From Pyrobaculum sp. 3827-6 (GTDB lineage Archaea; Thermoproteota; Thermoprotei; Thermoproteales; Thermoproteaceae): a stretch of DNA of 64,000 bases. The position numbers and the translations under genes were made by a program. Positions 8,626 to 51,540 of the stretch are shown here, piece by piece; position 1 is the first letter of the stretch; the number at the start of each line of letters is the position of its first letter. The notes beneath the pieces were generated by a model. The model was not told the DNA's origin. It did not search any database and saw only the letters and a list, made by a program, of their open reading frames with translations. Where the stretch lies: the NCBI RefSeq assembly GCF_025641885.1, contig NZ_JAOTQN010000001.1, positions 1,264,547 to 1,328,546 of the forward strand, in the 5' to 3' direction.

Positions 8626-11279
8626 ACAGACAGTATAAATACATAGCCAGCCGAGGCCACCACCGCAATTCGTTGCACGTCGCTGAGCACATACCTCAGC
8701 TCGCAGACCCCGCCCACATCTACAAAATACCCATTAACAAGACCAAAAGCCTTAACCGGCCTGTATTCCCGGCCGCCGCAGTCCAAAACCCAAAACGGGT
8801 CATACAAAACATTAAACTGCAGAAAGCCGCGCCCCACGCTAAACCTCCCCACACACGAGACGTTCCGCACCCACAAGCGCTCCCAGAAGTCCCGCGAAAT
8901 GAAAAGTACATACGACACCCGCGTCTTGACGAAGTCAAGCACCTCGCCCCCCCGCACCACCGACCCGTTCCCCACCACGCCCTCCCGTCCAAGCACGGGG
9001 CCCCCCTCCACGCGCAGAAACACTACATATTCCCCCTCCCCCGGCACCCGGAGGAAGCCGCTGAAGCCAGCCGCGACACCCAGCGGAGACGACAAATCCC
9101 TATACTTCGGCCCCGGCAGGTCGTACGGCGTTATTATAAACACCCGCGGCGGGGGGGACTCGCCGGGCTCCATAAAAGCCAGCCCCCCAACAGCCACCAA
9201 CCCCCCCGAGAAAACCGCCTCCACAGGCACGGCACCTCCCCGCCAGGAAAGCCGGCCCGCGTACACCCAGCGGAAGCGCGACTCGCCCGACCGCATGCTG
9301 ACGACAAAGACCTCCCCACCCAGCCTAAGCTCGAGGACCCCACTCACATTAGACACAAGCCCCCTCACATACACATCGTAGACCCCGGCCGGGAGCTCCA
9401 CAGACCCCACCACCCGGCCCCCCTCGCCGTACACAAAGACGTCTACAGGGTCAAAAGACCACAAGCCCCCACGCCGCTTAAGCTCCCGGTAAAAGACGTC
9501 GTAGATGATGCCGGTCCCCCCGGCCAGCCCCTCCACACGCATTTCCCGAAACGTGGCAACCGCCGCCACCCGGCCGGGGAGGAGGTCAGCCCCCTGAACC
9601 GCCGAAGCGTTCACGTAGCCAAAGACGACGGGCGGCGTCCTCCAACCCAGCACCGAGTAGAGGACAGCCACCGCCGGGTAGCCGCCGGACAAGACAAGCG
9701 GCTCCCCCACGCGGCAGAGCGGCGCGTCGGCGATTTTGTAAACCGCAAGCGCCTCCGAGCTCACCACAGCCTCGCCCACGTGCGAGAAGTAGGCCGCGGC
9801 GTCCCCCAGAGCGCGGCCGAGATCACTATATGCCCCAGCCCACACCCTATCTCTAACTATCCCGACGTAGTCCACCCCCACCACCCCATACGCCACCCCA
9901 GGATCCACAGAAACCAAGGCAAAGGGAAACGCCGTGTAGTTGATATAGTTAAAAAAGGCGAAGTACTGCGACAAGAGGCCTGTATATATGTGGGAGAGGG
10001 CGGGCCCGCCCCAGCTCCTCACCTCCACAATCCCCGTGGGCCCCCACACCTCAGACACCCAGCCCGGCCTGCCGCAGGCAACCCACGTAGCCCTAAACTC
10101 GCCCATCCCGGGGAGCCAAAGCGCCTTCCCCACGAAGCTTGGTAGGTCCCAGTAAGCCCGGGGCGGCGTAGAGGCGCACCAGTAGCCCCACATATCGCCA
10201 GAGAAGTAGACGGGCCCGTAGAAAAGGGCCGGCGCCGCCACCACGGCCAAGACGGCGCCGCGCCTCTCCAGACGCGTCAACACAATCAAAAACCCCAAAA
10301 GAGTAACAACCCCGTTCCAATACGGCTGCCTCAACAGACGGCCCAACACCGGCACCACCCCCAGCAGGAAATCCACATTAACAGTCGACGTCAGCAACAT
10401 GCCCACAGCCACAAACACAGCCCCCAGAAGCACCACCCAGTCCCTCCCCCGCCTAGCCAAAACAATAGCGAAACTCAGCACCACCGGAGCAAAGCCGTAG
10501 TCAAGGACGCCAGCCGTGACCTTCTCAAATAAGTCGCCCGGGTAGTAGTACCTAAGCACCAACGCGCTGAAGACGTCAACCCTACGGAAGTACTCAGTGA
10601 CGCCGAAGGTAGCTAGCGCGAGGCTACCTGCCCCGGCCATGTGGATCACAGCGGGGAGTGTCCTGGGAAGCGAGAGGACAGCCCCCGTGGCCAGGGCCAG
10701 GGCCACGTGTCCCCATCTGACGCCCCCCCTCAGCCTCCACGCCAGCAGTAAAAGAGCCGCCGCGCCGAACACCGCGTAGAACCTGTAGCTGGCCATAGAG
10801 AGCACCAACGCAAGGCCAAGTGAGGCGGCCAGCCGCCCCTCAGACGCCCCCAGCAACAGGTGGAGCGCCGTAGGGAAAAGGGCATACTCAAACCGGAACT
10901 GGACATCCCGCGGCTGATTTATAAACAGAGGGTTAAAGACGTAGAGCAGAGCCAGAAGCCACCCCCACCTAGAAAACCTCCTCAAGAAAACCGCCGCGGA
11001 GAGGTACGCCAAGGCCCCCGGCAACCCCAGCGCCAGAACCTGCAACACCTTGTAATCCCCCAGAGACACGCCGTACAGGAGGAGGTAGAGGTAGAGCTTG
11101 CCCAGATCAACCTCGCTGAAGATCTCCGTGTTTGGCCAGAGAGAAGACACGTCAAGAAACTGCCGCGCGTCCAAAACCTCGAACTGCTCAGCCAGAAAGA
11201 CGTAGCCGCCCGACGCCGAAAAGCGCCACACAGACCCGGCGAAAAGCACCAAAGCCACAACCAGAGCAACCGGACGCAT
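8550..11279 (-). CDS. Large polytopic membrane protein, probable GT-C-type glycosyltransferase or YfhO-like
   Basis: A 909-residue protein. Residues 1-390 hold about ten hydrophobic segments, starting with a signal-anchor (ALVVALVLFAGSVW). Residues about 400-880 are soluble and rich in beta strands, with several N-x-S/T sequons, and would face outside. A last hydrophobic helix is at about 880-900. Short acidic motifs follow the first membrane segment (EVLDARQF), as expected for lipid-linked sugar transferases. The shape recalls arabinosyltransferase-like or YfhO-like families, but I cannot assign one. ATG 11279 lies 25 bp after TGTATAAATAGG, so transcription is leaderless. Confidence 0.75.
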   Translation of the reverse strand: MRPVALVVALVLFAGSVWRFSASGGYVFLAEQFEVLDARQFLDVSSLWPNTEIFSEVDLGKLYLYLLLYGVSLGDYKVLQVLALGLPGALAYLSAAVFLRRFSRWGWLLALLYVFNPLFINQPRDVQFRFEYALFPTALHLLLGASEGRLAASLGLALVLSMASYRFYAVFGAAALLLLAWRLRGGVRWGHVALALATGAVLSLPRTLPAVIHMAGAGSLALATFGVTEYFRRVDVFSALVLRYYYPGDLFEKVTAGVLDYGFAPVVLSFAIVLARRGRDWVVLLGAVFVAVGMLLTSTVNVDFLLGVVPVLGRLLRQPYWNGVVTLLGFLIVLTRLERRGAVLAVVAAPALFYGPVYFSGDMWGYWCASTPPRAYWDLPSFVGKALWLPGMGEFRATWVACGRPGWVSEVWGPTGIVEVRSWGGPALSHIYTGLLSQYFAFFNYINYTAFPFALVSVDPGVAYGVVGVDYVGIVRDRVWAGAYSDLGRALGDAAAYFSHVGEAVVSSEALAVYKIADAPLCRVGEPLVLSGGYPAVAVLYSVLGWRTPPVVFGYVNASAVQGADLLPGRVAAVATFREMRVEGLAGGTGIIYDVFYRELKRRGGLWSFDPVDVFVYGEGGRVVGSVELPAGVYDVYVRGLVSNVSGVLELRLGGEVFVVSMRSGESRFRWVYAGRLSWRGGAVPVEAVFSGGLVAVGGLAFMEPGESPPPRVFIITPYDLPGPKYRDLSSPLGVAAGFSGFLRVPGEGEYVVFLRVEGGPVLGREGVVGNGSVVRGGEVLDFVKTRVSYVLFISRDFWERLWVRNVSCVGRFSVGRGFLQFNVLYDPFWVLDCGGREYRPVKAFGLVNGYFVDVGGVCELRYVLSDVQRIAVVASAGYVFILSVCLAAWRVGWCRWLSRRGTPRRRLG

Positions 11280-45196: not shown

Positions 45197-46516
45197 GTGG
45201 CACGGCGTGGGGAGCTGTCGCGTCAGTGGCTGAGGAGGAAGCTCGGCGTTTTTGACATGTACGCCTTGGTGCACGCCGACTCGCAGAGCACCTTCTACTT
45301 CGTGGTTGGGTACGTGGCGCTGGCGGCGGGGCTGTGGAGCTTCGTGGGCACTATCTACGGGGTTCTGCTCATGGCCGCCATAGCGCTCACCTACGGCGAG
45401 ATGGGGTCACGCTTCCCGGAGACCGGCGGCTCCTACCTCTACGTCAAGTACTCCTTCGGCGCAGCCGCGGCCTACCTATCCACGTGGTTGCTCGCCTTTG
45501 ACCAAGTGGTGATGGTGGGGTACGGCACGATAGATGCGGCGAGGACTGTGCTGAAGCTTCTGTTCGGAGCGACGGGCTGGGGCGACATACCGCTAGCCCT
45601 CCTCTTCTCCGGCGTCCTCTTCCTCCTCACCCTCGTGGGGATTAGGGAGTCCGCGGCGTTGGGGAAGCTGGTGGCGGTGATGGACTTGACTTTGATGTTT
45701 TCGCTAATAGCCGCCTCCCTCGTCCTGAGGCCGTCCCCGCCCCCCTTCTTCAACTGGGGGGGCGTGGAGGCGGCGAACCTCGTCTTCGCCCTCTCCCTCC
45801 TCTCCAGAGGCTTCACTGGGCTAGACGCCATTGGTCAACTGGCGGGGGAGGCGAGGGAGCCGCTGGTGCAGGTGCCCAGGGCTACGGTGCTTTTGATAGC
45901 CATCGGCGCGCTGGGCGCCCTGGGCCTTATGGCGTCTATAATGTCTGTGCTGACGCCACAAGACTTGGCGGACCCCGCCATTGCGCCGGTGCTACTCGCC
46001 GAGAAGGTGCACCCCGTCTTGTACTACCTCGTGGCTGTCAACATCTTCTCAATAATGCTCACCGCGGCGCTGACTGGTTACATAGCCTTCTCCCGGCTCA
46101 CGTATATCCTAGCCGACGAGGGCTTGCTACCTCCCGTCTTCCGCAAGCTCCACAAGAGATTTAGAACTCCCCACATATCCCTCACAATAGCATTCGCCAC
46201 ATCTCTCCTGCTTATCTACGTAGGAGAGGTGAAGATAATACTCGCAATATACGCCTTGGGTTCCCTCATTAACTACCTACTAGTAGCCCTCGCCCTGGCC
46301 AAGGCCTCGAGAAGCGGGACGCTACACGGCGCCTTCAGCACACCCCTCGTCGCCGGAGTCCCCCTCTCCGCGTGGATAGCCATGGCGCTGATACCCATCG
46401 GCATCGCCCTGACCCTGATAGAGAAGTACCCCTACCTCTGGGCGTGGGGCCTCTGGATAGCCGCAGGCTTAATACTGTACTACTACAGAAAGACAGCCGC
46501 TAGGAGCCACCCCTAG
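45197..46516 (+). CDS. APC-family amino acid permease
   Basis: 439 residues and twelve predicted spans. SRFPETGGSYLYVKYSFG is the APC substrate-site signature in helix 3 region; RKLGVFDMYALVHADSQSTF leads into helix 1. SRGFTGLDAIGQLAGEAREP corresponds to the helix 6 and acidic-loop region. The gene imports amino acids or related amines; specificity cannot be read. It starts without leader after the TATA box at 45171 and stands alone. Its end overlaps the convergent PaREP1 relic by 17 bp. Confidence 0.87.
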   Translation: MARRGELSRQWLRRKLGVFDMYALVHADSQSTFYFVVGYVALAAGLWSFVGTIYGVLLMAAIALTYGEMGSRFPETGGSYLYVKYSFGAAAAYLSTWLLAFDQVVMVGYGTIDAARTVLKLLFGATGWGDIPLALLFSGVLFLLTLVGIRESAALGKLVAVMDLTLMFSLIAASLVLRPSPPPFFNWGGVEAANLVFALSLLSRGFTGLDAIGQLAGEAREPLVQVPRATVLLIAIGALGALGLMASIMSVLTPQDLADPAIAPVLLAEKVHPVLYYLVAVNIFSIMLTAALTGYIAFSRLTYILADEGLLPPVFRKLHKRFRTPHISLTIAFATSLLLIYVGEVKIILAIYALGSLINYLLVALALAKASRSGTLHGAFSTPLVAGVPLSAWIAMALIPIGIALTLIEKYPYLWAWGLWIAAGLILYYYRKTAARSHP

Positions 46517-46980
46517 CCACAAGCTCCGCCACCTTCCTCAAACCCCGCTCGATGTAAGGCACGCGGTCAGCCACGTCCTCCAGCGTAAGCCGCGCCTCGT
46601 GGAACCCCTCCACGTGCAGAAACCAGCCCTCAGCAAAAGCCAGCCTAAACTCCTCCCCCAGTGCCCCAGCCAGCTTTCTCACAGCCGAGAAGAAGATCCT
46701 CGCCTCCCACCTCCCCGCCCTCGCTGCCTCCCCGGCCTTTGGCAACCCTAAAACAACGGCCGCCGCCTTCACAGCCTCCTCCACAGCTTTGTACAGCTTC
46801 TCAGAGGTCTGCACAGGATCGCTCTGCGCCTTGCCCTCTTCTAAATACTTAAAGGCCATCTCTAAATGGATCCTCCCCTCTTCCGAAGGGTCAAGACTCA
46901 GAAGTGTAGCCAGCGTCCCTAGTGATAACATACTCCACATCTATCCCCCTCGCCTCGGCCTCCCTCAACAGCGCCTCCAT
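46500..46980 (-). pseudogene. PaREP1/PaREP8-family gene with N-terminal frameshift
   Basis: The main frame (46500-46940, 146 codons) has GRIHLEMAFKYLEEGKAQSD, TSEKLYKAVEEAVKAAAV and WFLHVEGFHEARLTLEDV, diagnostic of the PaREP1/PaREP8 group. The true N-terminus lies one frame away: ATG 46980, two bases after the Nudix stop, encodes MEALLREAEARGIDVE, then goes out of frame near 46943. A one-base change there joins the parts. Starting at ATG 46940 instead would give a shortened but otherwise complete protein, so it may still be made. Confidence 0.65.
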
Positions 46981-47953: not shown

Positions 47954-48366
47954 TCATACCCCTCTGGGAAGCCAGCCGCTCCTCGTCCTTGTGAGCCCCC
48001 TCTCCTCCACATATCTAAAAACCCTCCTCTTCACCTCCTCAAAGATGGACGAGTCGCCGCACAGCGGCTTCCCATCAGCCACCGCGTCTAGGACAACCAT
48101 CGACCACCCGAGCACCTCATCCAGCTTGTCGAGGGGGAGCCACACCACCTGTCCGACCCCCCTGTGCTCCACCCGGTAGTCGCCTCGCTCCACTATCGCC
48201 AGCAGATCCCAGTCGCTGAGAGGCGTGTAGTCACCCCTGGCCCTGGAGCCGAAAAGCGCAACCACCAGCGCCCCCCCCCCCCGCAGAGCTCCTCCACAAG
48301 CCTACGGGCCTCCTCCTCCCTAGCCCGCGAAACCTCACGCAAAGCCTCCAGCCACCTCTCGAACAT
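47954..48366 (-). pseudogene. MNT-type nucleotidyltransferase (antitoxin of HEPN/MNT pair), frameshifted at a C12 run
   Basis: The N-terminus from ATG 48366 reads FERWLEALREVSRAREEEAR, then VEELC and a string of Gly codons. After the run of 12 C (48271-48282; G on the coding strand) the catalytic part is in another frame: VALFGSRARGDYTPLSDWDL with the GS and D-x-D signature of Pol-beta nucleotidyltransferases. Ten or thirteen G would restore one frame. The gene overlaps the HEPN gene by 32 bp. MNT partners silence HEPN toxins, so run-length change would switch the antitoxin on or off. Confidence 0.78.
48271..48282 (+). repeat. Run of 12 C inside the MNT gene
   Basis: The homopolymer lies exactly where the reading frame of the nucleotidyltransferase breaks. 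Confidence 0.95.
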
Positions 48367-48721
48367 AGCCCCACACCACCTCCATACACTTAACAGCCTC
48401 CTCCGCCTCCCACCTCCTGTAGTCATTCAGCCGCGCGTCCGGATACCTAGCCTGCACGTAGTGAGACTCCAGACTCTCCGCACACCTCACAACATCCTCA
48501 GGAAGGGACCTCCCGAAGACCTTAGCCACGTAGCTAAGAAGCTCGGAGATGGAGTGAGACAGGGGCCTGGAGCCGGTGGCCCTGATCAACACAGCCTCAA
48601 GCAAAAACTCAGCCGCCTGCTGGGCGAAAAAAGCCGCCGAGTCGTACCTCCCACTCCTCAAATCCTCCCCAGCATACTCCCTAAACCTCAACGCCCTCCT
48701 CACCCAAGCCTCGTAACTCAC
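48335..48721 (-). CDS. HEPN-domain protein (toxin of HEPN/MNT pair)
   Basis: 128 residues, all helical. YDSAAFFAQQAAEFLLEAVL, RPLSHSISELLSYV and SHYVQARYPDARLNDYRRWE are family landmarks of the COG2250-type HEPN proteins (A-E-x-x-L-K helix, P-x-x-H loop, RYPD motif). No strict R-x4-6-H nuclease motif is seen, which is common for this subgroup. The MNT gene follows with a 32-bp overlap. An ACTGGTGTGTAGAGG region precedes GTG 48721; no clear TATA. Confidence 0.78.
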   Translation of the reverse strand: MSYEAWVRRALRFREYAGEDLRSGRYDSAAFFAQQAAEFLLEAVLIRATGSRPLSHSISELLSYVAKVFGRSLPEDVVRCAESLESHYVQARYPDARLNDYRRWEAEEAVKCMEVVWGYVREVAGGFA

Positions 48722-49060: not shown

Positions 49061-49152
49061 TGGTGGACCGGCCGGGATTCGAACCCGGGATCTCCCGCGT
49101 GCCCGGGGGAACACCGCGCGAGGCGGGCATCCTTCCGCTAGACGACCGGCCC
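49061..49152 (-). tRNA. tRNA-Ala (anticodon CGC) with short intron
   Basis: On the minus strand the acceptor is GGGCCGG paired with CCGGTCC, including the G3-U70 pair that marks alanine tRNAs, followed by an encoded ACCA end. The anticodon stem is CCCGC/GCGGG, and the T arm CCGGGTTCGAATCCCGG. The anticodon loop is 24 nt instead of 7, so an intron of about 17 nt interrupts it next to the anticodon CGC; this is the canonical archaeal position. The promoter TTTTTAAG box lies at 49172-49179. Confidence 0.9.
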
Positions 49153-49170
49153 TTTACATATACAGTATGT

Positions 49171-49184
49171 GTTTTTAAGTTTTT
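49171..49184 (-). promoter_or_regulatory. tRNA-Ala promoter overlapping the PaREP2b stop codon
   Basis: GTTTTTAAGTTTTT (AAAAACTTAAAAAC on the coding side) is the TATA element of the tRNA. The TAA that ends the PaREP2b gene (49175-49177) lies inside it. The tRNA-Pro promoter at 51418-51432 has the same core. Confidence 0.75.
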
Positions 49185-50896
49185 CTGCATTGGCCTAGGG
49201 CGGCGCATACGGGTTCTAGGCGCATGAGGGTGTCTAGGGCGCCGCCGCTGAGTAGTATCTGTTCTGGCTTTCTGCTCCACCTCTCTACTCCTAGTGCTTT
49301 AAGCACCGCCACGGTCCTTAGGTGTTCGGCTTCGCGTCCTCCCTCGGCGCCGGCGTGTATGATTACGTAGCCCTTAATCTTGTCGCCACTCTTGAAGAAC
49401 CTGGCCTCTTTCTCCACTGCCGCTTCGCTGTTCCCTTCAATCACCTTTGCCCGTATCTTGACGACTAGGTGTTCCCTCGTCTTGCTTTTCTCTTTCCAAG
49501 CCTCCACCTCCTCGACGCGGACCCTCACCCGTCTGCCCTCTACCTCTACCTCTTTCTCAATGGGCGGCTTTACGGAGCCCCACTGCTCGCCTTCGCGGAA
49601 GTATTGCATTAGGCGTTGGCGCACCACCTCCCCCCTCGCCTCCTTTAGGAGCATTTCTTTCAGCCACTGCGCTCTCTCGTTGCCGTGTAGCGCCAACCAG
49701 CCGATGTACCTAAGGCCGTCTGTCGTTATGCGGACGAAACCAAGCCTGCCGCCCTCCGGCTCCCTTGCGGTGAAGTGGATAAAGCACCAGTCGCCTTCAC
49801 AGCTGTCCCCCATCCCCAGCCCCCGCAGAAGCTCCACAGCCTTGTTGAAGGACTCCAGATCGCTGGGCTGATATATTACTTCTATAGTGCCGTATTTTCC
49901 CAGCTTAACGGAAAATCTAATTTCGCCCCACTCCGGCACGCCTTTCTCGAACTTCTTGACTAGGCGATCGTAGGTGTCCGCTGACAACACCCTCACCTCT
50001 CTGCACTGTTTGAGGAATTCTACCACCGCCTTTCTAACCGCCTCGTGTACGGAGTCGGCGGCCAGCGCGTTGGTGGTTACGGCTATTTGCCACATGTCGC
50101 GGTTGTGGTATTTGTCGTAGGTCTTCTTCACCTCAGCTCTCACCCCCACAGCCCTAAGCACCGCCGCCCTCCGCTCAGCCTCCTCGCGATCGGTTGTGCT
50201 AAAGTGAAGCTCCACGGCGTTGTTTTTATGCAGGCGTATTGAATACTCGGCCACGTCTCCGCCCAGCCTCACCACAAGCTTGGCCCTGGGCCTCTTGCCC
50301 GCTGTGGTGAAGTTCTCTAGGCGGGCTTCCACGCCCACGACCTCCAGCGCCCTAGAGTACTTAATCCTTATCTCGTCGCTTCCGCCGGCCAGCTCCACGG
50401 CGTACAGCCAGAGAGACGCGCTGGACAGAAAGCCCTTAGCCTTATCGACGCTCCACGCCAGCTCAAACCACCTGCTCTTCCCGTCGGCCTTGGCGTATAC
50501 CCTCTCCGGCTCGTGCCCGGCCGCCTTCAAGACGCCCAGCGCCAGCGCCGTCTTGTGGACGTGGGTTATGGTCTCAGCCTCTTCCTCTTTTGCCCTGGCT
50601 CCGCCAGCGCCCTCTTGACCAGCCTCGTCCTCCTCTTCCCTCGTGGAGAATTTGCCTATGGTCAGCGTCACTTTTTCAGTCTGTATACTCCCGTCTCCCA
50701 TCACAGCGGCGGTGATGAAGACGGCCACGGCCTTCTCGTCGCCCTCCACCGCCCAGAGGTACGCAGACAGCCAGGAGAGGAAGTACCGCGTCAGAGAGGC
50801 GTTTTCGAAGGCCATATTCTCTGCCACCTTGGCCCAGTGGGGCTTGCCGGAGAGCGGCTCCGCGGCTGGGACCGGCCGCATCGGCGCCTCCACCAT
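49175..50896 (-). CDS. PaREP2b protein, possibly LAGLIDADG-endonuclease-derived
   Basis: 573 residues. The family name rests on the overall sequence, for example SRKPEQILLSGGALDTLMRL near the end. Residues about 45-85 read FLSWLSAYLWAV, then FITAAVMGDGSIQTEKVTLT and IG: a helix ending in G-D-G-S-I followed by a beta strand, as in the active-site helix of LAGLIDADG homing endonucleases. HVHKTALALGVLKAAGHEPE and KSRWFELAWSVDKAKGFL continue that resemblance. A second, weaker half (KLVVRLGGDVAEYSIRLH, then AVLRAVGVRAEVK) could be a degenerate repeat. Residues 85-105 are a Glu/Ala-rich insertion. The last codons and the stop fall in the tRNA-Ala promoter. Confidence 0.75.
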   Translation of the reverse strand: MVEAPMRPVPAAEPLSGKPHWAKVAENMAFENASLTRYFLSWLSAYLWAVEGDEKAVAVFITAAVMGDGSIQTEKVTLTIGKFSTREEEDEAGQEGAGGARAKEEEAETITHVHKTALALGVLKAAGHEPERVYAKADGKSRWFELAWSVDKAKGFLSSASLWLYAVELAGGSDEIRIKYSRALEVVGVEARLENFTTAGKRPRAKLVVRLGGDVAEYSIRLHKNNAVELHFSTTDREEAERRAAVLRAVGVRAEVKKTYDKYHNRDMWQIAVTTNALAADSVHEAVRKAVVEFLKQCREVRVLSADTYDRLVKKFEKGVPEWGEIRFSVKLGKYGTIEVIYQPSDLESFNKAVELLRGLGMGDSCEGDWCFIHFTAREPEGGRLGFVRITTDGLRYIGWLALHGNERAQWLKEMLLKEARGEVVRQRLMQYFREGEQWGSVKPPIEKEVEVEGRRVRVRVEEVEAWKEKSKTREHLVVKIRAKVIEGNSEAAVEKEARFFKSGDKIKGYVIIHAGAEGGREAEHLRTVAVLKALGVERWSRKPEQILLSGGALDTLMRLEPVCAALGQCRKT

Positions 50897-51326
50897 CTTC
50901 TCACACTCGGGGGTGTCTAGACGTTCTAAACCGGCGCCTCAGCGCCGAATTTCAAAACCCCCATAAGGATATGTAGCGCCGAGAAGCGGCTGAGAGGTAG
51001 CGGGCGTAGGCGGCGCGCCGAAGTCTACGACACGTGCTGGGGGCCCGCCACGTGAGGACAGGCGCCGGGCGCGGCGGGGGTCGAAGCAATCAATCAAACT
51101 CCTATGCCGATCCGGGGGTAGAGACACATGTGAAAACTACGCAATGCCAAGCGGTGAAGCCGCAGAGACAACCCACACCACACCCCCACAAACCCCAGAA
51201 CAGAACCCCACGACGGCGCCACACGGCTAGGGCCGACACCCTCCGTAGTGTTAAAAACACCACAGCCACCACACAGCAACCCCAAAACGGACAGACCCCC
51301 CACCCCGAGACACCAAAACTAAGTAG
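50897..51326. other. No recognisable gene; PaREP2b promoter
   Basis: About 430 bp between PaREP2b and tRNA-Pro. GGTTTAGAAC on the minus strand (plus 50927-50936) may be the PaREP2b TATA box. The rest is A/C-rich on the plus strand without a supported gene. Confidence 0.4.
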
Positions 51327-51400
51327 TGGGGCCGCCGGGATTTGAACCCGGGATCACGCGGACCCGAACCGCGCATCCTACCAGGCTAGACTACGGCCCT
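51327..51400 (-). tRNA. tRNA-Pro (anticodon CGG)
   Basis: No intron is seen. D arm GTCTAGCCTGGTAGGAT, anticodon stem CGCGG/CCGCG with loop TTCGGGT (anticodon CGG), T arm CCGGGTTCAAATCCCGG. Six acceptor pairs form between GGGCCG and CGGCCC, and the seventh position would be A1 against C72, a mismatch. The DNA continues ACTACTT, so CCA is not encoded. Either maturation starts at an unusual place or the terminal pair is mutated. Confidence 0.85.
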
Positions 51401-51417: not shown

Positions 51418-51540
51418 GTTTTTAAGTTTTTCCTCGGTATCTAGGCGTGTGAGGGTGTCTAGGGTGCCGCTGGCGAGTTTTATCTGCTTAGGTTTCTCTC
51501 TTTGTTCGCCGTCTGCCTCTCTATGCCTTGTCCTAATCAC
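51418..51540 (-). pseudogene. C-terminal relic of PaREP2b beside tRNA-Pro
   Basis: Reading leftwards, the sequence is EADGEQREKPKQIKLASGTL, then DTLTRLDTEEKLKNT, aligning with KPEQILLSGGALDTLMRLEP of the intact gene. The nucleotide similarity to 49171-49270 includes the tRNA promoter and the AGGGTGTCTAGGG block. Here the match ends in the tRNA-Pro promoter without a stop. Upstream of about 51540 no PaREP2b sequence is visible. Confidence 0.6.

Follow-up and report, generated by a model that had tools for sequence, protein, structure and literature searches.

PaREP2, a repeat family of Pyrobaculum, is probably a target-repairing LAGLIDADG homing element of tRNA genes

Introduction

LAGLIDADG enzymes cut alleles without the intron or element, and repair of the break copies the element in. 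In described endonucleases such as I-Tsp061I, I-DmoI, PI-PfuI and I-SceI, two pseudo-symmetric halves with one motif aspartate each form a saddle of alpha-beta-beta-alpha-beta-beta units, and these enzymes are tied to specific insertion sites. WhiA, a LAGLIDADG-derived bacterial regulator with the same fold, has lost the catalytic acids and is not known to be a nuclease. The mORFs of fungal mitochondria (Allomyces atp6; Glomus atp6, atp9, cox2 and nad3) are free-standing LAGLIDADG ORFs inserted in a gene. They bring along a partial copy of the target gene, so that the native part is replaced and its remnant is left behind (PMC3630166).

The family PaREP2 (PaRep2b, PF07775) has been described as repetitive, and the P. 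oguniense genome paper refers to it as a putative transposon (PMC3558965). In the openly accessible literature naming PaREP2 that we searched, we found no nuclease, fold or tRNA link for it. This agrees with a preliminary description of the locus analysed here, according to which no such role has been described for PaREP2b.

Like the LAGLIDADG endonucleases, full-length PaREP2 contains two pseudo-symmetric halves with a motif aspartate each, is predicted to adopt the same saddle and is tied to specific insertion sites. Unlike them, it lies outside introns and inteins, is associated with many target genes instead of one, and carries extra LAGLIDADG-like halves and a C-terminal module in open frames that can exceed 1,000-4,000 codons. 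With the fungal mORFs it shares the combination of an endonuclease-type ORF and a replacing gene piece, the swap being seen at the genes for tRNA-Lys, tRNA-Arg(CCT) and tRNA-Ala; common descent is not claimed. Whereas the mORFs are mitochondrial, target protein-coding genes and carry a 3' end, PaREP2 resides on an archaeal chromosome, targets tRNA genes and carries a promoter and a 5' end.

The window, a stretch of 64,000 nucleotides, corresponds to C1:1264547-1328546 of the Pyrobaculum sp. 3827-6 genome (G000; 2.30 Mb, 13 contigs). We compared it with G004, a close relative that belongs to a different species and is 95-97% identical to G000 across shared stretches, and with further relatives. 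Named genomic stretches in these genomes carry L-numbers. G000 contains about two dozen whole or partial PaREP2b copies. Among 61 related genomes the family is confined to Pyrobaculum and one neighbouring genus, and many close relatives are without it.

Results and discussion

The window protein is related to LAGLIDADG endonucleases

The PaREP2b ORF of the window (49175..50896, minus strand) begins with ATG, encodes 573 amino acids and matches PF07775 with an E-value of 6.9e-21 (Pfam). Together, the ORF list, Pfam and the alignment mark it as a putative one-motif LAGLIDADG-derived protein that is 5'-truncated relative to full-length copies. The preliminary description had pointed to a helix-GDGS-strand order in this ORF, and both the ORF and the residues in their succession are borne out: FITAAVMGDGSIQTEKVTLT represents residues 60-79 of the protein, and KTALALGVLKAAGHEPE lies downstream in the order first described. 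The motif itself, FITAAVMGDGSI (residues 60-71; 50684..50719, minus strand), includes the aspartate D68 (codon 50693-50695), which falls on D21 of I-DmoI when VIA-align places residues 52-162 on I-DmoI 5-97. In a family alignment of 43 rows with 22-79% identity to the window copy, D68 is present in all rows covering the position (35/35), as is the next glycine, G69 (35/35); this was the conservation check suggested at the outset. The glycine preceding D68 drifts to tyrosine or phenylalanine in copies from the genomes taken as P. oguniense and P. aerophilum.

The LAGLIDADG_3 profile (PF14528) matches residues 220-277 of the window protein, in the half after the GDGS half, with an E-value of 0.0032, which is below the cut-off. 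The same profile reaches E<=1 in 18 of the 43 aligned family members (best 9.4e-7), and the match on the window protein is, judged from the sequences, more than chance. In L224, which the PaRep2b profile also matches, the GDG half scores above the curated PF14528 cut-off (28.5 vs 22.5 bits, E 1.9e-6). The profile-profile comparison that had been proposed was carried out with hhalign against nine ordinary Pyrobaculum LAGLIDADG endonucleases; it aligned motif on motif with a probability of 91 and an E-value of 1e-6, and paired the half after the GDGS half with the second half of ordinary LAGLIDADG proteins. The match was weaker (probability 69) with alignment A2, which covers the two-half region of 24 full-length proteins with 20-80% identity. 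A PDB-sequence profile search with alignment A1 did not find LAGLIDADG chains, because the sequence alone is too diverged there, and the window protein gave no match in an NCBIfam search or in a scan of the genome contigs. The weaker second half of the preliminary description is thus only partly retained. A LAGLIDADG-like half does follow, as detected by PF14528, but the following halves are motif-less, and the catalytic partner lies upstream and is absent from this copy.

Both parts of this relationship occur together in L220 of G004, a protein of 547 amino acids in which a two-motif LAGLIDADG domain, matched by PF14528 above its cut-off (E 5.6e-9), is followed in one frame by a PaREP2b-like part. 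The counterpart in G000, L028 (G000:C1:1236383-1239790), is split over two frames, of which the C-terminal one matches the window protein (1.8e-6). L220/L229 (G004:C1 ~1632234-1634400) and L028 interrupt a gene after GRRLG and before HGYAEL. This gene, which we take to be 5-formyltetrahydrofolate cyclo-ligase-like, is intact in most other Pyrobaculum genomes, and the inserted sequence may represent an intron of a protein gene or else a homing event that broke the gene.

Full-length copies are predicted to form a two-half saddle

The AlphaFold2 model of the window protein had a pLDDT of 84. All of its VIA-align matches with Z>=5 were LAGLIDADG proteins and spanned residues 36-188, with Z up to 7.0, a value that is not decisive alone because unrelated models can reach that range. 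This region represents half A, the LAGLIDADG half with GDGS, which hhalign also supports (50333..50791, minus strand). Weaker matches suggest two more motif-less halves in the model. Half B (residues 189-320; 49937..50332, minus strand) contains the PF14528 match and weakly resembles the second half of I-OnuI (Z ~4), and half C (residues 325-430; 49607..49924, minus strand) is a possible further LAGLIDADG-like half with equally weak matches to I-AabMI and I-OnuI (Z ~4). A beta-rich module modelled with a pLDDT of ~94 forms the C-terminus (residues 446-570; 49187..49561, minus strand). Foldseek with the whole 573-aa model returned nothing below 1e-3 and ranked an asparaginase first, and no match below 1e-3 was present in a viral structure library.

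Full-length PaREP2 copies, which occur in the same genome and in related genomes, extend upstream of the region retained in the window and contain there another LAGLIDADG half with a motif like GWLxSDV. The aspartate of this half is present in 23 of 24 rows, the exception being L100, in which unrelated sequence replaces that part; the only invariant columns in A2 are the two motif aspartates and two glycines. Full-length PaREP2 therefore has two LAGLIDADG motifs per chain and the window copy one, since the latter starts past the upstream half. Other short copies are also without the first motif half. By analogy with I-CreI, the window copy may act as a homodimer, or it may be decaying. Elsewhere (L065, L080, L081, L083, L108, L111 and others), open frames of 1,000 to ~4,700 codons have PaREP2b as their C-terminal part, and the long N-terminal part of one such giant frame matched no Pfam family above cut-off.

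A two-half model of 310 amino acids from a full-length copy gave a clear fold match where the 573-aa model had not. This model (pLDDT 88.9, pTM 0.88) matched PI-PfuI, I-Tsp061I and I-SceI with Z 12.7, 12.6 and 12.1, respectively. In total, 117 chains reached Z>=8, and the best 50 matches listed were all LAGLIDADG proteins; the top Foldseek match was I-Tsp061I (probability 1.00, E 8.7e-4). The saddle of two alpha-beta-beta-alpha-beta-beta halves, for which a structure prediction had been suggested, is thus found in the model of the two-motif form, and the window copy alone matches it with one half. The conserved aspartate, the structural matches and the profile homology support the original proposal that PaREP2b is a derived LAGLIDADG homing endonuclease, as judged by its predicted fold.

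PaREP2b ends in the promoters of tRNA genes

The stop codon of the window ORF (TAA, 49175-49177) falls within the promoter of a tRNA-Ala(CGC) gene with a 17-nt intron (49061..49152, minus strand), which ARAGORN and the comparison with G004 identify as the invaded target; the anticodon was assigned in the intron mode of ARAGORN and is ambiguous. The promoter (49153..49186, minus strand), with the TATA box CTTAAAAAC, is probably element-borne, as it differs from the native G004 promoter and the native one survives at L060. The comparison with G004 suggests that nt 1-12 of the tRNA (49141-49152, minus strand) also came with the element. A presumable remnant of the element's 5' leader is located at 50977..51041 (minus strand); its 65 bp align with the L060 leader at 80% identity. 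A second tRNA gene, tRNA-Pro(CGG) (51326..51400, minus strand), has a PaREP2b C-terminal fossil beginning with KPKQIKLASGTLDTLTRL directly upstream of its promoter (51439..51501, minus strand; E 7.5e-4, no control match below 1), which is also present in G004 (L131). Hence, both tRNA genes near the window ORF are linked to the family, tRNA-Ala with the full ORF and tRNA-Pro with the fossil.

The tRNA-Ala locus is further flanked by an HEPN/paREP1-like ORF (46500-46940) and a nucleotidyltransferase/HEPN-like pair (47954-48721), all named by eye. The T loop of tRNA-Pro(CGG) contains an insertion of ~16 nt in G004 (L131) that is absent in G000, an intron gain or loss between close species.

Of the 20 PaREP2b C-terminal ends in G000, 7 precede a same-strand tRNA gene by 17-57 bp, compared to an expectation of 0.02 within <=100 bp (binomial 6.5e-17). 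A C-terminal profile detected an intact, truncated or fossil PaREP2b C-terminus upstream of 10 of the 44 tRNA genes and gave no match below E 1 on reverse-complement and shuffled controls. The PaREP2b frame terminates inside the TATA box of the tRNA gene, typically as AAA ACT TAA AAA, and the same arrangement is present at tRNA-Leu (L118) in the genome taken as P. oguniense. None of the copies examined in P. aerophilum, G008 and G018 adjoins a tRNA gene.

Pyrobaculum tRNA genes are unusually intron-rich, and the preliminary description had hinted that the intron of the neighbouring tRNA gene is relevant to homing. While the 17-nt intron itself is confirmed, it is irrelevant to the insertion, as the element enters near the 5' end of tRNA genes, intron or not. 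The tRNA intron was rejected as a homing site because insertions lie at nt 12 and the intron-less tRNA-Arg(TCG) of G000 was also invaded.

Filled and empty sites define the insertion point

Five tRNA loci (Lys, Pro, Ala, Arg(CCT) and Arg(TCG)) are filled in one and empty in the other of G000 and G004. At the genes for tRNA-Lys and tRNA-Arg(CCT), G004 has the filled site, whereas G000 has no PaREP2b gene and retains just a short C-terminal fossil at tRNA-Lys. For tRNA-Pro (C1:872218), tRNA-Ala(CGC) of the window and tRNA-Arg(TCG), it is G000 that has the filled and G004 the empty site. Left ends are readable at three loci, namely GGGCCCGTAGCT (Lys, L082), GGGCTCGTAGCT (Pro, L069) and GGGCCGGTAGTC (Ala, L060). 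In each, tRNA nt 1-12 are followed by CTTAAC, which places the insertion between nt 12 and 13. A search of 11 Pyrobaculum genomes with this pattern, which was derived from the three loci, gave exact matches at these loci only. At the tRNA-Ala of the window, the displaced native promoter and the stump of nt 1-12 are found at C1:1335.2 kb (L060), ~22 kb off and beside another PaREP2b copy; therefore, this locus was rearranged since the insertion. In L084, a fourth copy, the 5' end is truncated, and the junction lies at the TATA box and involves a few shared bases. No insertion is very recent, because the copies are old (Ks > ~0.35 in this clade).

These sites also bear on whether PaREP2b acts as a nuclease. 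It could instead be a LAGLIDADG-fold DNA-binding protein like WhiA, with the family spreading by recombination between tRNA genes that share sequence, which we consider unlikely. WhiA is indeed among the matches of the two-half model (Z 11.6), and the copies and fossils present at numerous tRNA loci would offer substrates for recombination; one locus is clearly rearranged. However, both catalytic aspartates are invariant while nearly all else varies, which is unlike a fold used for binding only and unlike WhiA with its lost acids. Moreover, three loci show a precise left end, and entering empty tRNA loci takes more than an exchange between filled ones.

Ka/Ks between copies is 0.2-0.4 in this clade (0.29 for the window copy versus L060), which in sequence terms indicates purifying selection on PaREP2b copies, but is no proof of an active window copy because the estimate includes selection on ancestral copies. 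Such selection, together with the stop codon that many copies have fused to the TATA box of the tRNA gene, would also be in line with a host that keeps PaREP2b upstream of tRNA genes in order to regulate or mark their promoters. We regard this as very unlikely, since occupancy of a given tRNA gene varies between species that are 96-97% identical, many copies are truncated or fossil, and several related genomes do not contain any copy.

The element replaces the promoter of its target

The empty genes for tRNA-Lys and tRNA-Arg(CCT) in G000 have a common native promoter stretch, ACATGTATAATATTAGTAAAGG. In G004, where they are filled, both have ACACACAAAAAATTGTAAAGG instead and are identical to each other. 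A target-site duplication alone was rejected for tRNA-Lys, as the inner promoter is not native and equals that at another tRNA gene. In the filled copy of tRNA-Ala, the promoter and nt 9 of the tRNA differ from the native state. At tRNA-Arg(TCG) (L061:7888-7964, G000) the altered stretch extends to the anticodon loop, and the G004 gene (L143) has an intron that is absent in G000. The tRNA-Pro gene has kept its native promoter almost intact, and the outer copy has diverged before the 12-nt stump. A displaced native stump was found at tRNA-Lys and tRNA-Ala. The converted tract on the tRNA side thus ranges from none to the anticodon loop, a variability that is in keeping with tRNA-anchored recombination and not with a site-specific recombinase.

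Short elements measure 2.15-2.23 kb and are made up of the left end, ~400 bp of leader, the PaREP2b ORF and the promoter/tRNA end. The leader is common to L060, L062 and L082 (80-82% identity). Unlike DDE transposons, the elements have no terminal inverted repeats at the ends in L082 and L060, and the 2.2-kb element contains no large gene-like ORF besides PaREP2b, the remaining frames being antisense or short leader frames. Two PaREP2b insertions, L067 (G000:C4:114.3 kb) and L089 (G004:C1:436.3 kb), are located outside tRNA genes. The 3' end of L067 comprises a stray promoter and 18 nt of tRNA-like sequence; therefore, promoter and tRNA pieces travel with the element.

Direct repeats of ~40 bp flank both of these insertions, and simple homing gives no account of them. 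In combination with a fixed C-terminal end and scattered 5' ends, they recall an RNA-templated, LINE-like spread, which would give a fixed 3' end, variable 5' truncation and variable target duplications. To our mind this is marginally less probable than a role for the host, as the short elements are without a reverse transcriptase, the same left end occurs in three copies, two of them with the common leader, and two tRNA loci carry the promoter of the element and not a duplicate of the target. tRNA genes are the usual targets of integrases and integrase-like insertions do occur at other tRNA loci (L078, L084), but the movement of the element in trans by a tyrosine integrase or transposase is the least probable explanation and was rejected in view of the gene content, the ends and the entry site: the L078 and L084 insertions use the 3' part of the tRNA gene whereas PaREP2b inserts at nt 12 and restores the 5' end, the 2.2-kb element has neither an integrase gene nor another large gene nor inverted repeats, and the junction is not site-specific because the length of the tRNA-side tract varies.

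A model for homing with repair of the target

In our view, PaREP2 probably homes to archaeal tRNA genes as a LAGLIDADG element and repairs the target gene in doing so. This reading combines the homology, the fold, the conserved acids, the insertion point at three loci, the promoter replacement and the polymorphism between close species. Homing had been put forward from the start as the reason for the spread of the family, which is in line with the filled and empty sites and the replaced promoters; DNA cleavage, the exact cut site and the recombination route are inferred. The two LAGLIDADG halves of full-length PaREP2, with one invariant aspartate each, would form a DNA-binding saddle, and the protein would cut tRNA genes near nt 12, within the conserved A-box/D-arm region. 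With a filled locus as the template, repair would copy a unit that runs from the left end CTTAAC through the leader and the PaREP2 gene to the tRNA promoter and nt 1-12, and would displace the native promoter and the 12-nt tRNA stump to the far side of the element. As the copied unit ends in a promoter and nt 1-12, the invaded tRNA gene would be rebuilt with the promoter and 5' end of the element.

With less assurance, we lean towards regarding PaREP2 as the first known homing element with a whole range of tRNA genes in a cellular genome as its targets. The carried promoter and 5' end would make insertions harmless, so that tRNA promoters would be rewired genome-wide and the intron of tRNA-Arg(TCG) would perhaps have been removed. 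If true, this would provide a fold, an enzyme activity and a mode of spreading for an archaeal repeat family that has had none of these since it was named, and the target-repairing trick of fungal mitochondrial endonuclease elements would also exist in archaeal tRNA genes. Protection against mobile elements has been proposed as a reason for split and intron-bearing tRNA genes (PMC3218864), and PaREP2, by invading tRNA genes and converting their 5' portions, would make this idea testable.

Other rearrangements at tRNA loci

Three further arrangements were observed at tRNA loci of the two genomes. In L062 of G000, a tRNA-Thr gene and a degenerate second copy (8719-8812 and 11108-11200) flank a short PaREP2b element and represent a duplicated, decaying tRNA gene. 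An insertion of ~8 kb in G000 (L078:2504-10467, C3), recognised by comparison with L080 of G004, ends at the 3' end of tRNA-Leu(CAA), holds a PaREP2b fossil and has an ordinary integrase-type look. In G004, 1.7 kb of DNA interrupts the tRNA-Arg(CCT) gene (L084:10918-12601); the native 3' half is located at the distal end of this stretch, and an alternative 3' half lies upstream.
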